Made by a program: the position numbers and the translations under genes
The notes under the pieces: model-generated
Databases searched by the model: none
What the model was told of the DNA's origin: nothing
What the model saw: only the letters and a program-made list of their open reading frames with translations
Source: a virus
Direction: 5' to 3' (one strand)
IMG/VR virus record: IMGVR_UViG_3300048591_000988
Coordinates: 1-33,069 of that record
DNA: 33,069 bases
Shown: positions 1 to 33,069 of the stretch, piece after piece
Layout: every line of letters begins with the position of its first letter
How positions within the stretch are numbered: position 1 is the stretch's first letter

Positions 1-127
1 ACGGGCGTAATGCCTGCATGTTGCCGGTTCGAGTCCGGCGCCGCAACCATAACGGTACGGCGCCAATAATTAGCCGATTGATCAATGTGGCTTGGCAACC
101 CTGACAGGTCACAGGAAAAGGGGACGG
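1..127. repeat. Terminal direct repeat, left copy (circular contig overlap)
   Basis: These 127 bases are identical to 32943-33069. An exact overlap of 127, the largest k-mer commonly used by short-read assemblers, is the usual sign of a closed circular contig rather than a biological terminal repeat. The overlap lies inside a noncoding RNA locus, so that locus is cut by the contig ends. The nonredundant circle is 32,942 bp. Confidence 0.93.
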
Positions 128-147
128 GAAACCGTCCTCTTTTTTTT
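120..147 (+). terminator. Rho-independent terminator of the junction ncRNA
   Basis: Stem GGGGACGG/CCGTCCTC (8 bp with one G-U pair) is closed by a GAAA tetraloop (128-131) and followed directly by eight T residues (140-147). This is a textbook intrinsic terminator. It ends the RNA that starts near 32856 and crosses the contig junction. It lies about 325 bp upstream of the portal gene, so late transcription must either read through it or restart after it. Confidence 0.85.
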
Positions 148-168: not shown

Positions 169-184
169 GTTTTCCTGGGAAAAC
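169..184. promoter_or_regulatory. parS: Candidate parS-like site, copy 1
   Basis: GTTTTCCTGGGAAAAC has 7-bp inverted arms around a central TG. The same 16-mer occurs at 15167-15182 and 17692-17707, and in inverse orientation at 27724-27739. Length and symmetry are like ParB centromere sites, although the sequence is not the chromosomal parS consensus. Assignment rests on symmetry, recurrence and the parAB genes in this genome. Confidence 0.5.
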
Positions 185-401
185 TAGCCGCGTGGCGGGT
201 CGAGTGGGTCGGCAAGGATGTCCTGCCAGTTTTCAAGCAGGTTGCCGTCCGCGTCTAGGCACTGCGGCATGATCTCCTGGAGTGCGGCGCGCCAGGCGGT
301 AACGAGCGACTCGGCCTGGTCGATGATGCTGCGCTCAAACTGAGCGCACGCCTCGAGCAGGCAGGTGCTGCGGCTTCGAGGTGCGGCTGATTGGTGTCCA
401 T
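184..401 (-). pseudogene. Possible frameshifted small leftward ORF
   Basis: Read leftward, a frame ending at TAG (184-186) gives a well-composed, helix-rich protein segment (for example EACAQFERSIIDQAESLVTA) but has no ATG, GTG or TTG start. An ATG at 399-401 opens a different frame (MDTNQPHLEAAAPAC). A -1 shift near residue 15 would join the two into one peptide of about 70 residues. It could be a decayed gene, a programmed frameshift, a sequencing error or chance. No family is recognised. It is the only coding-like signal between the ncRNA terminator and the portal gene. Confidence 0.3.
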
Positions 402-15130: not shown

Positions 15131-15171
15131 AACGGCGCCCGTCCTGTGTTAGGATCGGGCGCCGTTGTTTT
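15131..15171. terminator. Bidirectional intrinsic terminator between converging operons
   Basis: A perfect 11-bp stem AACGGCGCCCG/CGGGCGCCGTT (15131-15141 and 15156-15166) is extended by TCCT/AGGA with a GTGTT loop. A T4 tract follows on the + strand and a matching TTTT on the - strand. It separates the late operon from the end of parB. The + strand T tract is the first part of parS-like copy 2. Confidence 0.9.
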
Positions 15172-15182
15172 CCTGGGAAAAC
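15167..15182. promoter_or_regulatory. parS: Candidate parS-like site, copy 2
   Basis: The exact 16-mer GTTTTCCTGGGAAAAC lies between the terminator and the 3' end of parB. The 9 bases after it (ATCAATC onward) are also shared with copy 3, giving a 25-bp match that runs into each gene's stop codon. Confidence 0.6.
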
Positions 15183-17691: not shown

Positions 17692-17707
17692 GTTTTCCTG
17701 GGAAAAC
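17692..17707. promoter_or_regulatory. parS: Candidate parS-like site, copy 3
   Basis: The exact 16-mer GTTTTCCTGGGAAAAC lies just upstream of parA, between it and the previous gene's stop codon. This is a typical place for a centromere that also acts as an operator for the par operon. Confidence 0.62.
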
Positions 17708-25114: not shown

Positions 25115-26146
25115 ATGAAACACTCGATCAATCTCGAACCTGCTGCCGAGTCGTTGGACGGGCGACAACTGGATGCGTTGCTGCAGTTGTACCTGGACAG
25201 GCTGGGCAGGCGCTCTGACTTGGCGCCGGCGACGGTTGTCGGCTATGCCAATCGACTGGCCTATTTCCGGCAGTGGTGGCGCGATGTCGGACCCTGGTGC
25301 GACTGGGAGCTGACACGGGATAAGCTGACGCAGTTCGGCGCGTGGCTGGCGGCGGCACAGTCACAGTATCGGCAGCCGTTGACCTATACCAGCCGTCACG
25401 ATGTGTTGCGTCGATTGAAGCAGGCGTTCAAGTGGGCATTCGAGCACGACTATCTGAGCCGTGATATTCGGGCGTGGGTGCCAGCGGCGGCCGGTGCGGC
25501 GCCGCTGCGCCAGCGGGCAACGCTCGATGAGTTGACGGCGCTGATGGGGGCGGCAGGGCGGTCTGGCTATCCTGTGCGTGATCTGGCGTTTGTGGCGCTC
25601 TTGATCGGTACGGGACTGCGCAAGATGGAGGCTGTCAATCTGGATGTGATGGACATTCGGATGAATGCCGATCACAGCGGGACGGCAGCGGTGCGCCATG
25701 CGAAAAAGGTCAAGGGGCGCAGTGTACAAGGGCGAGTCGTGGCGTTCGATGATTGGACGGGCCACTATTTGGCGGCACTGCTGGATAGTTACGCAGTGCT
25801 CGACGGGCCGCTGTTCCGGGCGCCGGATACGACGCGTCGCATTGGGGCGATGGCGGCCTACCGGATTGTGAAGCGAGCGATCCACCGCGCTGGCCTCGAT
25901 GGTGTGATTGAGGGTCCGCACGATTTACGGCGAAACTTCGCCACGTGGTTTAGCAAGCAGCACCGGGGCGAGCTGCACGGACGGCTGCTGTCAAAGCAGT
26001 TGGGGCATGCCCGCTTTGTCCAGACAGATGCGTACATTTTGCACGACGCCGACGATCTACAGGAGGTGATCCGCTCGCCGCTGGCCGACTCGCCGAAGAC
26101 GATTCCGGCGTCGGCGCCGACGTTGCGGCGGGGTGGAAAGGTGTAG
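25115..26146 (+). CDS. int: Tyrosine recombinase / integrase
   Basis: The protein has 343 residues. N-terminal SAM-like core-binding domain (about 15-120, with VVGYANRLAYFRQWWRDVGP) and C-terminal catalytic domain with R169 (GTGLRKMEA), a Lys near 197-200, HDLR (H269, R272), GH (H298) and the nucleophile Y307 (QTDAYILHD). It could integrate the phage or resolve multimers of the circular plasmid form. ATG 25115 follows AATGGAGGCAAACT. It stands alone on the + strand. Its stop lies in the first helix of a structured block. No attP core could be identified from one sequence. Confidence 0.92.
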   Translation: MKHSINLEPAAESLDGRQLDALLQLYLDRLGRRSDLAPATVVGYANRLAYFRQWWRDVGPWCDWELTRDKLTQFGAWLAAAQSQYRQPLTYTSRHDVLRRLKQAFKWAFEHDYLSRDIRAWVPAAAGAAPLRQRATLDELTALMGAAGRSGYPVRDLAFVALLIGTGLRKMEAVNLDVMDIRMNADHSGTAAVRHAKKVKGRSVQGRVVAFDDWTGHYLAALLDSYAVLDGPLFRAPDTTRRIGAMAAYRIVKRAIHRAGLDGVIEGPHDLRRNFATWFSKQHRGELHGRLLSKQLGHARFVQTDAYILHDADDLQEVIRSPLADSPKTIPASAPTLRRGGKV

Positions 26147-27723: not shown

Positions 27724-27739
27724 GTTTTCCCAGGAAAAC
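27724..27739. promoter_or_regulatory. parS: Candidate parS-like site, copy 4 (inverse orientation)
   Basis: GTTTTCCCAGGAAAAC is the exact reverse complement of copies 1-3. It lies between the stop of the sunset-domain gene and its terminator, far from parAB. Confidence 0.52.
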
Positions 27740-29552: not shown

Positions 29553-29990
29553 ATGGGGAATTTCCTGTCAGGGCAGAGGGGTGTAGTGGCACAGCAGCAG
29601 CATGGGGAGCCGCTGGCGATACCTGACGGCCTTGACCCGACGTTGCTGCCGTACTGGGAAACAGTTGCCGCCCTGTTGCCAAAGGGGGTGGCCGCCAAGC
29701 ATGACACGCAGATTGTGTTGCAACTGTGCCAGGCGCTGCATGTGCGCGACCGCGCGTATGAGCAAATTCTGAGCGGCGGCATTGAGGTGGCGGACGCCGC
29801 GCATGGGGGCGAGCCACGCCGGAACCCGGCAATCATTACGTGGCGGCAGGCGGCAGACATGGCGACAGGATTGATGAATCTGCTTGGTCTGTCGCCGATC
29901 AGCAGAGCACGGATACAGTCAGCCGATGGCGAAAAAGCAGACCCTCTCTCTGAGTTCATCCGGCGGCGGCACGCGTCGGACTCGGAGTAG
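29553..29990 (+). CDS. terS: Terminase small subunit, P27 family
   Basis: The protein has 145 residues. GLDPTLLPYWETVAALLPKG, then AAKHDTQIVLQLCQALHVRD, then RRNPAIITWRQAADMATGLM and the diagnostic LGLSPISRARI match the P27-type small terminase, which recognises phage DNA for packaging. ATG 29553 has a weak ribosome site; a GTG at 29586 (AQQQHGEP) has a better one (AGAGGGG) and may be the true start. The 3' end overlaps the large subunit. Confidence 0.88.
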   Translation: MGNFLSGQRGVVAQQQHGEPLAIPDGLDPTLLPYWETVAALLPKGVAAKHDTQIVLQLCQALHVRDRAYEQILSGGIEVADAAHGGEPRRNPAIITWRQAADMATGLMNLLGLSPISRARIQSADGEKADPLSEFIRRRHASDSE

Positions 29991-31659
29991 GAAGCACCCG
30001 GCTGAACGGTACATTGACAACGTTATACGCGGGAAGGTGGTCGCGTGCCGATGGGTGCGGCTGTTCTGTGAGCGGCATAAGCGGGACCTGAAGCGGGGAC
30101 GCCAGCGCGGGCTGGTCTTCGACCGGGATGCTGCGGCGCATGCGATTGAGTGGTTCGATTATCTGCACCACAGCAAAGGGCGGTGGGCTGGACGGCTGAT
30201 CGAGCTGGAGCCGTGGCAACAGGCGATTCTTTGGGTGCTGTTTGGGTGGCATCGGAGATCGGGGGGGCGGCGGTTTCGGTCTGGCTATGTCGAAATTGCA
30301 CGTAAGAATGGCAAAAGCACGTTGGCCAGCGGGCTGGCGCTGTATATGCTGATCGCCGACGGTGAGGCCGGGGCGGAGGTGTACTCGGCGGCGACGAAGC
30401 GTGACCAGGCGAAAATTACGTGGGATGAGGCGGCGCGGATGGTCAAGGCGTCGCCGCACCTGCGCCGGCACGTGACGGTGCATAAGGACAGGCTCTTTCT
30501 GAAGTGGGACACGGCGAGCCTGTTTGTGCCGCTGGGGCGTGACTCGGACACGATGGACGGGCTGAATGTGCATTGTGCGATTGTCGACGAGCTGCACGCC
30601 CATCGCACGTCGGAAATTTGGGATGTGCTGGAGACGGGGACAGGGGCACGCACGCAGCCGCTGATGTTTGGGATTACGACGGCAGGGTTCAACCAGTCGT
30701 CGTTCTGTTACGAGCGCCGGCGCTATACGCTGCAGGTGCTGGACGGTGTGATCGAGGATGATTCCCATTTTGGGATAATCTTCACGCTGGATGAGGGGGA
30801 CGACGAGTGGGACGAGCGCAATTGGATCAAGGCGAATCCCAACCTGGGCGTGAGTGTGGATTTGATCGATCTGCGCGAGCAGGCGCGCAAGGCCAGGGAG
30901 ATCGCCAGCGCGCTGACCTCCTTTCTGACGAAGCGGCTGAATGTCTGGACTCGCGCGTCGGAGCAGTTCATTCACCCGGACAAGTGGCGGGGCTGCGGCG
31001 GGGTGTTCGACCCGGCGGCGCTGGCCGGGCGCACGTGCTATGGCGGGCTGGATTTGTCGAGCACGTTGGATATTACGGCGTGGGTGCTGGTCTTTCCGCC
31101 GACTGAGGATGATCCATTGTGGCGGGTGCTGCCGCGGTTTTGGGTGCCGGAGACGGCCATGCACGAGCGCAGCAGGCGTGACCAGGTGCCGTATGATGCG
31201 TGGGTGCGCCAGGGCTGGATCGAGGCGATTCCTGGCGATGTGATCGATTATGAGTTTGTGTATGCCCAGATCGACCGGGACGCCCAGTTGTATGACGTGC
31301 GCGAGGTTGGGTTTGATCGTTGGGGGGCTGCCTCGATTTATCTGTGGTTCGCTGCGCGTGGGATGACGGTGGTGCAGATTGGGCAAGGGTACCAGTCGAT
31401 GTCGGCGCCGATGAAGGAGATGGAGAAGTTGATTGTGAGTGGTCAGCTTGCGCACGGCGACAATCCTGTGCTGACGTGGATGGCGTATAACCTGGTTGCA
31501 CAGCGCGACCCGGCAGGCAATGTGAAGCCGGACAAGAAGCATAGTGGCGAAAAAATTGACGGGATGGTTGCGATGGTGATGGCGTTGTCACGGGCGACGC
31601 TGCATGACGCAGAAAGCCAACGCTCGGTGTATGAGGAGAGGGGGATTCGGTCGCTATGA
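29926..31659 (+). CDS. terL: Terminase large subunit
   Basis: The protein has 577 residues from ATG 29926 (a TTG at 29884 would add 14 residues). ATPase domain: Walker A-type ARKNGKST (125-132), Walker B CAIVDELHAH (D221, E222), coupling motif GITTAGF. Nuclease domain: YGGLDLSSTLDITAWVLVF, VGFDRWGAASIYLWF and KIDGMVAMVMAL carry the RNase H-like acidic residues. It pumps DNA into the prohead and cuts it. Resembles HK97-type (cos) enzymes. The stop overlaps the next start as ATGA. Confidence 0.95.
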   Translation: MAKKQTLSLSSSGGGTRRTRSRKHPAERYIDNVIRGKVVACRWVRLFCERHKRDLKRGRQRGLVFDRDAAAHAIEWFDYLHHSKGRWAGRLIELEPWQQAILWVLFGWHRRSGGRRFRSGYVEIARKNGKSTLASGLALYMLIADGEAGAEVYSAATKRDQAKITWDEAARMVKASPHLRRHVTVHKDRLFLKWDTASLFVPLGRDSDTMDGLNVHCAIVDELHAHRTSEIWDVLETGTGARTQPLMFGITTAGFNQSSFCYERRRYTLQVLDGVIEDDSHFGIIFTLDEGDDEWDERNWIKANPNLGVSVDLIDLREQARKAREIASALTSFLTKRLNVWTRASEQFIHPDKWRGCGGVFDPAALAGRTCYGGLDLSSTLDITAWVLVFPPTEDDPLWRVLPRFWVPETAMHERSRRDQVPYDAWVRQGWIEAIPGDVIDYEFVYAQIDRDAQLYDVREVGFDRWGAASIYLWFAARGMTVVQIGQGYQSMSAPMKEMEKLIVSGQLAHGDNPVLTWMAYNLVAQRDPAGNVKPDKKHSGEKIDGMVAMVMALSRATLHDAESQRSVYEERGIRSL

Positions 31660-32130: not shown

Positions 32131-32165
32131 AGGTTGCGCTGATGGCGCAGAAAGAGGGAGCTGAT

Positions 32166-32588
32166 ATGGGAAAGTGCGCAGTGCCGTATCCGCGTGGTGT
32201 GCGGCGTCCAGGGTATCTCAAGCCCGTTTACGACGACATGCGCAGGGGATTGACCGAAAAAGAAAAACGACTTGGGTTACAGTGGCCGCAGTATTTGTAT
32301 AAGTACACATTGTTTGATGTGCATCGAAAGGCGCTAGAGTGGGGCGCCCACGTCACAGAAGAATTTGCTAAAACGTACTGCGACGCCATTGGCTCGACGA
32401 TCAGGGTGCTCTCTCTTGCCCCGGACGACATTGTGATTGTGCAGTATCCCGGTAAATTGTCGGATAAGGCTCTTGAGCGGCTCGTTGAAAGTGTGGGGCG
32501 TTATTTCCCCAACAAAATTATGGTGCTTGAAGAAGGAATGACGATTGGGGTTGTGACGGCAAAAGAGAAAGCGGAAGTTGATGGCTAA
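32166..32588 (+). CDS. Hypothetical protein with atypical composition
   Basis: The protein has 140 residues from ATG 32166, which has GAGGGAG upstream; ATG 32142 is an alternative. DDIVIVQYPGKLSDKALERL and YFPNKIMVLEEGMTIGVV are strand-helix-strand units seen in small phage proteins of unknown role. The region 32230-32560 is visibly less GC-rich than its surroundings and uses more AAA, TTA and AGG codons, which suggests recent acquisition. Confidence 0.75.
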   Translation: MGKCAVPYPRGVRRPGYLKPVYDDMRRGLTEKEKRLGLQWPQYLYKYTLFDVHRKALEWGAHVTEEFAKTYCDAIGSTIRVLSLAPDDIVIVQYPGKLSDKALERLVESVGRYFPNKIMVLEEGMTIGVVTAKEKAEVDG

Positions 32589-32823
32589 GTGGAAGCGGCG
32601 CCGAAGCCGGCATGTGGCGGCAGGTCTGAATCGATATTATTCGTTGCAGGGGCACATGATTCGCCCCTGGGAGGACGATGATGGGGCGACGGCTGAAGGC
32701 CAGGTCGGGGGCGGAGTACGATGCGATCAGCCGCTGGCGGCATCGGCGGAACTGGCTGCATGTGCGGCGGAGCTTTTGGAAGCGGGCGATGCGTCGCCGG
32801 GAGAGAAAGGCGGCACGGGTTGA
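32581..32823 (+). CDS. Doubtful small ORF overlapping the next gene
   Basis: The protein would have about 80 residues. The first 35 (AKWKRRRSRHVAAGLNRYYS and following) are plausible and otherwise unaccounted for, but the rest overlaps a more convincing gene in another frame. The N-terminal part may be real and the extension accidental, or a frameshift may separate the two. Low confidence. Confidence 0.4.
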   Translation: MAKWKRRRSRHVAAGLNRYYSLQGHMIRPWEDDDGATAEGQVGGGVRCDQPLAASAELAACAAELLEAGDASPGEKGGTG

Positions 32824-32851
32824 CGTGCGCAGAACGCACGTGCTAGAATGA
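32678..32851 (+). CDS. Small basic phage protein (57 residues)
   Basis: Starts at ATG-ATG 32678/32681 with GGGAGG just upstream. RRLKARSGAEYDAISRWRHR and KRAMRRRERKAARVD resemble a small basic protein often found beside terminase or portal genes in siphophages, with a conserved G-x-E-x-D-A motif and an Arg-rich end. Function unknown. Its 3' end overlaps the promoter of the junction ncRNA. Confidence 0.65.
   Translation: MMGRRLKARSGAEYDAISRWRHRRNWLHVRRSFWKRAMRRRERKAARVDVRRTHVLE
32820..32849 (+). promoter_or_regulatory. Promoter of the junction ncRNA
   Basis: TTGACG (32820-32825), 18-bp spacer, TAGAAT (32844-32849). The spacer contains a palindrome (ACGTGCG-CAGAA-CGCACGT, 32823-32841), a likely operator. 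The expected start is near 32856, exactly where a 12-bp helix begins. Confidence 0.68.
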
Positions 32852-32855
32852 TTGT

Positions 32856-33069
32856 GCGTGGCCGGTGTGCTGGGTGCATCTGCGCTTGGCGACTTCGGGG
32901 GCATCGGTCACGCTTAACTGCGGTGGGGCGATGGGTAGCCCGACGGGCGTAATGCCTGCATGTTGCCGGTTCGAGTCCGGCGCCGCAACCATAACGGTAC
33001 GGCGCCAATAATTAGCCGATTGATCAATGTGGCTTGGCAACCCTGACAGGTCACAGGAAAAGGGGACGG
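32856..33069 (+). ncRNA. Structured noncoding RNA with tRNA-like 3' part, crossing the contig junction
   Basis: The RNA would run from about 32856 through the junction to 147 (circular), about 234 nt. It opens with a 12-bp helix GCGTGGCCGGTG/CATCGGTCACGC (32856-32867/32902-32913). At 32919-32991 it is laid out like a tRNA: acceptor TGCGGT/GCCGCA, D arm GGGC-GATGGGTA-GCCC, 23 nt for the anticodon and variable parts, T arm GCCGG-TTCGAGT-CCGGC and terminal A-CCA. The acceptor is one pair short and the loop CGTAATG lacks U33, so it is not a normal tRNA. An alternative hairpin, GGCGCCG/CGGCGCC (32979-32985/33000-33006), competes with it. It ends at a strong terminator. Confidence 0.55.
32943..33069. 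repeat. Terminal direct repeat, right copy (circular contig overlap)
   Basis: Identical to 1-127; see the left copy. One of the two copies is redundant on the circle. Confidence 0.93.

Follow-up and report, generated by a model that had tools for sequence, protein, structure and literature searches.

A divergent relative of phage initiator tRNAs, probably transcribed, between the terminase and portal genes of a phage

It has long been asked why phages carry tRNAs, and two of the ideas put forward, codon supply and tRNase evasion, both assume a tRNA that decodes. What, then, is a phage element that folds as a tRNA, keeps the elbow and the CCA end, and has lost its anticodon? We addressed this question for a viral DNA record analysed over its whole length (33,069 bp; hereafter the window). 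The two ends of the record repeat exactly (positions 1-127 are identical to 32943-33069), so that the first and last 127 bp represent a terminal duplicate and the genome forms a circle of 32,942 bp. Once the circle is rejoined, as the preliminary description of this DNA had advised, the RNA unit is seen to span the junction between record end and record start. The phage is of the head-and-tail type; its genes include those for portal (472-2529), protease, capsid, tape measure, CHAT protein, HNH and TerS as well as a tyrosine integrase (25115-26146) and TerL (29884-31659), and its relatives in genome collections are only 32-34% identical. The RNA unit is placed between the TerL and portal genes.

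Initiator tRNA features of the cloverleaf

The core of the unit is a plus-strand cloverleaf ending in CCA at positions 32919-32991 (32919-32942 joined to 1-49 in the circle). It has the general features of tRNAs, namely correctly spaced D, anticodon and T arms, a TTCRANY T loop, and GG in the D loop, and ARAGORN calls it as a tRNA-Leu(taa) at 32918-32990; as a background, this program made two calls when the whole genome was dinucleotide-shuffled 200 times, and none when 426 kb of phage DNA was read in reverse. The Rfam check gave no such recognition: the tRNA family (RF00005, cut-off 29 bits) did not match at the gathering threshold or at E<=10, the closest clan member in a permissive scan was tRNA-Sec (20.5 bits versus a cut-off of 47), and no family exceeded its cut-off for the unit at either gathering or permissive thresholds. 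A covariance model of initiator tRNAs built without the window scored 52.2 bits (E 5.1e-12) at 32919-32991, a value that attests to tRNA homology and not to a link with initiators, since elongator tRNAs too can exceed 50 bits with this model. The model comprises 12 phage initiators and E. coli tRNA-fMet (n=13), the former collected from viral contigs by short-acceptor and R11-type tRNA patterns that were both written from the window sequence, which biases the set towards the window at those positions.

The initiator link rests instead on pairwise ranking and on the R11:Y24 pair. Among 142 tRNAs, the two ranked closest to the cloverleaf were E. coli tRNA-fMet and the phage initiator tRNA of IMG/VR locus L055, with a top score of 77.6 lying 3.8 SD above the mean (42.4, SD 9.2). 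The window G11:C24 keeps the initiator R11:Y24, which is A11:U24 in 13 of the 13 initiators. Its 1:72 pair is U1-A72, a weak pair that the L055, L065 and L083 tRNAs also have and that is an ambiguous sign of initiator identity. At 29-31:39-41 it has G-U, G-C and G-C, without the full three stacked G-C pairs, and several of the comparison phage initiators likewise lack all three. Judged by these sequence comparisons, the cloverleaf clearly descends from an initiator tRNA. The tRNA-shaped middle and the initiator resemblance proposed in the preliminary description are thus borne out, the first by ARAGORN and the covariance model and the second, strongly, by the ranking and R11:Y24 together with that model. 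Its label of a novel-looking ncRNA was overstated, since the core shares ancestry with a known RNA; phage initiator-like tRNAs are already known and common (their tRNA-Met genes match in 275 phage records), and what stands of the claim is that the window RNA is an odd variant of them.

What has been kept and what has been lost are unevenly distributed over this molecule. Eighteen of the 19 scorable pairs are formed (5-8 with the partner strand slid), the elbow is intact (G18 G19 with T54 T55 C56 and A58), and U8, G26, A44, G46 and CCA are also kept. Two changes affect both sides of a pair, one at 11:24 (A-U, invariant in the 13 initiators, to G-C) and one at the 15:48 Levitt contact (G-C, invariant in the 13, to A-U), the latter depending on a D-loop alignment that also turns A14 into G. 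By contrast, the anticodon loop (CGTAATG, 32948-32954, plus strand) has G33 for U33, T37 for A37, G38 for A38, and UAA at the anticodon position, without the CAU (CAT) of initiators. Relative to L055 or tRNA-fMet, 5 of the 7 positions of this loop are changed, compared with 16 of the remaining 66 (one-sided Fisher p 0.018); the T loop is unchanged against L055, and so is CCA. The canonical 7-bp acceptor is absent, replaced by 5 bp plus a possible U-G with gaps at model positions 6-7 and 66, so that the short acceptor and missing U33 are as previously claimed; in all, about two acceptor pairs and one G-C of the three-pair anticodon block have been lost. Because of the loss of CAU and of these acceptor pairs, the RNA should not initiate translation. 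When an equal number of random substitutions was introduced into L055 or E. coli tRNA-fMet, only 0.02% of trials kept as many pairs, which indicates that most of the 29% divergence of the cloverleaf arose under fold constraint; this retention shows past constraint on the fold and does not show present constraint.

Covariation among homologues, which the preliminary description had set as a check, is found at the level of initiator tRNAs only, since DNA look-ups in phages, plasmids and the records of 24 relatives brought up no orthologue of the unit as a whole. Exact anticodon-T arm and T arm-acceptor patterns had no match in 2.9 million viral contigs. A looser T-arm pattern retrieved short-acceptor phage tRNA-Met genes from these contigs, and a 5'-half pattern retrieved the initiator-like tRNAs that form the key comparison set. 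The altered anticodon-loop pattern occurred in 12 contigs, where the model found a tRNA-like fold at none of the matched places and the matched sequences resemble protein-coding DNA. T-arm matches in G013 were rejected as relatives, not being tRNA-like. Several tRNA-rich contigs (L046-L050, L054, L056-L058) contain very short CAU tRNAs (~69-71 nt) with reduced acceptor stems, just some of which are recognised by ARAGORN.

The predicted transcription unit

Upstream of the cloverleaf, a sigma70-type promoter-like site (TTGACG-18-TAGAAT, plus strand, 32820-32849) matches 10 of 12 consensus positions and has an extended -10. It is the better of two such sites in 4 kb (chance expectation 1.3), and on its own it therefore constitutes weak evidence. 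A perfect inverted repeat (ACGTGCG-N5-CGCACGT, 32823-32841) lies between the promoter hexamers and has no second exact copy within the window; a search for LexA-type boxes (GAAC-N4-GTKC) gave no excess (4 found versus 2.0 expected). An exact 15-base match, ending in GAACGCACGTGCTA, connects window positions 32831-32845 with positions 2007-2021 of the relative L009. It overlaps the inverted repeat in the window, is located upstream of the portal gene in L009 and lies at a -10-like site in both phages; a shared operator is possible.

The predicted transcript starts at position 32856, at the expected distance from the promoter, and its first base opens a 5' leader hairpin (32856-32913, plus strand; MFE -34.1 kcal/mol, z -3.57) composed of an inner hairpin and an outer helix, previously described as 12 bp and found here to have 13 bp. 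A trailer hairpin separates the cloverleaf from an intrinsic terminator (116-147, plus strand) with a bidirectional stem, AAAAGGGGACGG-GAAA-CCGUCCUCUUUU at 116-143, followed by a T run to 147 (-18.5 kcal/mol, z -4.2). A consensus terminator scan listed this stem on the minus strand only, we think because stem counting consumes the T run on the plus strand. The transcript would thus measure ~234 nt from promoter to GAAA terminator. Folded whole, the 238-nt unit has a z of -4.1 and none of 200 shuffles was equally stable; the cloverleaf by itself is of unremarkable stability (z -1.0), and for this reason the case for it rests on homology.

All the parts of the unit listed in the preliminary description, from the promoter-like pair to the GAAA-capped terminator, are therefore present, including an alternative hairpin (GGCGCCG/CGGCGCC, 32980-33007, plus strand) that would disrupt the T arm and the acceptor. 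The full-length MFE narrowly prefers this hairpin (-111.0 kcal/mol versus -108.6 with the cloverleaf forced, a gap of 2.4), so that, as modelled, the two states of the RNA are close in energy; the tertiary contacts ignored by the energy model would favour the cloverleaf.

An accessory cassette between TerL and portal

A portal-based search for further relatives returned L003 as the only close one. Its TerL and portal proteins are 97% identical to those of the window, and nucleotide homology between the two phages ends at 32145 and restarts at 432. The interval, absent from L003, is a variable cassette of ~1,228 bp (32146-33069, continuing to 431 in the circle) that contains, besides the RNA unit, ORFs of 148 and 57 aa and a small minus-strand gene in convergent orientation. 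Since so close a relative lacks it, the RNA is accessory cargo and not a core part of the packaging machinery. Other relatives carry HTH-type or other small genes at the place of the RNA unit.

The 148-aa ORF (32142-32588, plus strand) has a G+C content of ~51%, lower than its surroundings, and no family match; no relatives of it were found in phages or viral contigs, nor any in phages for the small basic 57-aa ORF (32678-32851, plus strand), the end of which overlaps the promoter. Residues 98-139 of the 148-aa ORF weakly resemble a segment of the phage portal protein (35-40% identity over ~40 aa; Pfam portal E 0.054). The convergent gene (184-401, minus strand, with a promoter-like site at 437-408) has codon-position G+C values of 0.71/0.49/0.76, like the structural genes of this phage, and a frame apparently disrupted near its start, which points to a genuine pseudogene or else to a fault in the assembly. 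Next to it lies one of four copies of a palindrome, TTTTCCTGGGAAAA, found in the window (170-183, 15168-15181, 17693-17706, and 27725-27738), with 10 strand matches at <=2 mismatches where 0.14 are expected. It also occurs in the relatives L004 (2126-2141), L005 (2018-2033), L007 (2219-2234), and L015 (2143-2158); in L004, L007 and L015 it abuts an ATG close behind TerL and precedes a LuxR-type HTH-like gene, and it may be an operator or a start-associated repeat.

Readings of the RNA and known counterparts

On the evidence of its sequence, the RNA is a divergent and probably transcribed relative of phage initiator tRNAs, and it is either a repurposed tRNA look-alike or a tRNA gene in the course of being lost. 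We give nearly even chances to an expressed, fold-maintained, non-decoding tRNA mimic, and make it the slight favourite over simple decay, by a small margin, because 18 of the 19 pairs are kept and compensatory changes have occurred. The changes also cluster in the anticodon loop, and the element comes with a promoter-like site, a leader hairpin and a terminator of its own. Host RNA polymerase would transcribe the ~234 nt between the TTGACG/TAGAAT promoter and the GAAA terminator, and the tRNA body would be either exposed within this transcript or cut out as a CCA-ended RNA that, less surely, would no longer take part in decoding. As a mimic, it could engage, through its elbow and CCA end, a protein that acts on tRNA-fMet or on tRNAs generally, candidate partners being RNase P, an enzyme that binds the CCA or the elbow, or a defensive host tRNase, and the altered anticodon loop would prevent reading or cutting of the RNA there. 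It has been proposed that phage tRNAs with an altered anticodon loop resist host tRNases such as VapC (PMC10264068), and some VapC toxins cut initiator tRNA, an activity described for one such toxin in PMC4105405. A more elaborate version, in which a temperate phage converted an initiator tRNA into a specialised RNA without a decoding role, its elbow and CCA conserved, its anticodon loop dead and its expression driven by its own promoter, that binds or soaks up a host factor recognising tRNA-fMet, this factor being a defence tRNase or a tRNA-processing enzyme, is tentative and, as a whole, rather unlikely.

Several observations count against the mimic. The pair-keeping changes could all precede the loss of decoding; the full-length MFE, as modelled, slightly prefers the fold that breaks the T arm; the shortened acceptor should weaken recognition by RNase P and EF-Tu; the frame-disrupted minus-strand gene makes the cassette look like decaying DNA; and the searches gave no orthologue from which to gauge selection on the altered form. 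They leave substantial room, though less than for the mimic, for a functionless, decaying pseudogene of a phage initiator-like tRNA-Met(CAU) whose anticodon, along with part of the acceptor, disappeared recently. Its ancestor would be easy to find among the initiator-like tRNAs of the 275 phage records, the Rfam tRNA model makes no call, and the element sits beside the disrupted small gene in an exchanged cassette absent from the 97% relative. However, the fold is very well kept for a divergence of 29%, with both-sided changes at 11:24 and 15:48, and the promoter-like site, leader and terminator look intact. Were it a pseudogene, it would call for caution in gene calling, as the tRNA-Leu(UAA) assignment by ARAGORN is contradicted by the initiator ancestry.

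It is improbable that the RNA works in translation with a UAA anticodon, whether as an elongator that reads UUA or as an initiator that starts at a non-AUG codon. Such a role would agree with the TAA anticodon given by ARAGORN and with the intact body and CCA, and divergent tRNAs do occur in phages, but G33 replaces the nearly universal U33, the long variable arm needed by tRNA-Leu is absent, the acceptor has only 5-6 bp, and the nearest Rfam tRNA model scores 20.5 bits, below its cut-off. As tRNA fragments carried by mobile elements are frequently mistaken for genes (PMC9897764), we also considered an attP, in which the phage would have duplicated the 3' portion of a host tRNA gene for use in integration. 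The phage does carry a tyrosine integrase, and its relative L006 has a tRNA 3' half with CCA (1205-1256) directly upstream of its integrase gene (1425-2357), in the classic attP arrangement and likely the attP of L006. The window element, in contrast, lies ~7 kb from the integrase, is tRNA-like in both halves, D arm included, has an anticodon loop that matches no initiator tRNA seen, and possesses its own promoter-like site and terminator; we rejected the attP reading as very improbable. Least credible of all is a packaging RNA, as suggested in the preliminary description, or another structural-operon RNA linked to the adjacent terminase and portal. The position between TerL and portal speaks for it, as does a tRNA-Met that comes after TerL in Janthinobacterium phage Donnerlittchen, but L003 has the same terminase and portal without the RNA, and in other relatives HTH-type or other small genes occupy this place.

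The tRNA mimic, our slightly preferred reading, would matter beyond this phage, as a phage RNA with elbow and CCA but without an anticodon would separate decoding from other uses of the tRNA shape. Comparable tRNA-shaped molecules without normal decoding are the Bacillus cereus pseudo-tRNA (tRNA-Other) and similar tRNA-derived regulatory RNAs; the former belongs to another host group and is likened to the window RNA by description only. The tRNA 3'-half attP of integrating phages such as L006 has a T arm and CCA end near phage genes, as in the window, whereas the window element is a whole cloverleaf with a distant integrase. E. coli tRNA-fMet is identical to it at 52 of 73 aligned positions and shares R11:Y24, G30-C40, G31-C39 and the CCGCAACCA end. 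It differs in having a C1 x A72 mismatch where the window has U1-A72, and the window, in turn, has no CAU, a G-U as one of the three G-C pairs, and an acceptor 2 nt shorter in the 5' strand and 1 nt shorter in the 3' strand. Phage initiator-like tRNA-Met(CAU) genes, exemplified by L055 and Donnerlittchen (ON529854.1), retain CAT, within a loop that reads CTCATAA or CCCATAA, and have a longer acceptor, against CGTAATG and 5-6 bp in the window. They have in common with it the D-arm type with R11:Y24, the T1-A72 acceptor end, the T arm and the CGCAACCA end; in L055 the 3' acceptor strand is shortened as in the window, and in Donnerlittchen the tRNA-Met gene likewise stands alone after TerL.
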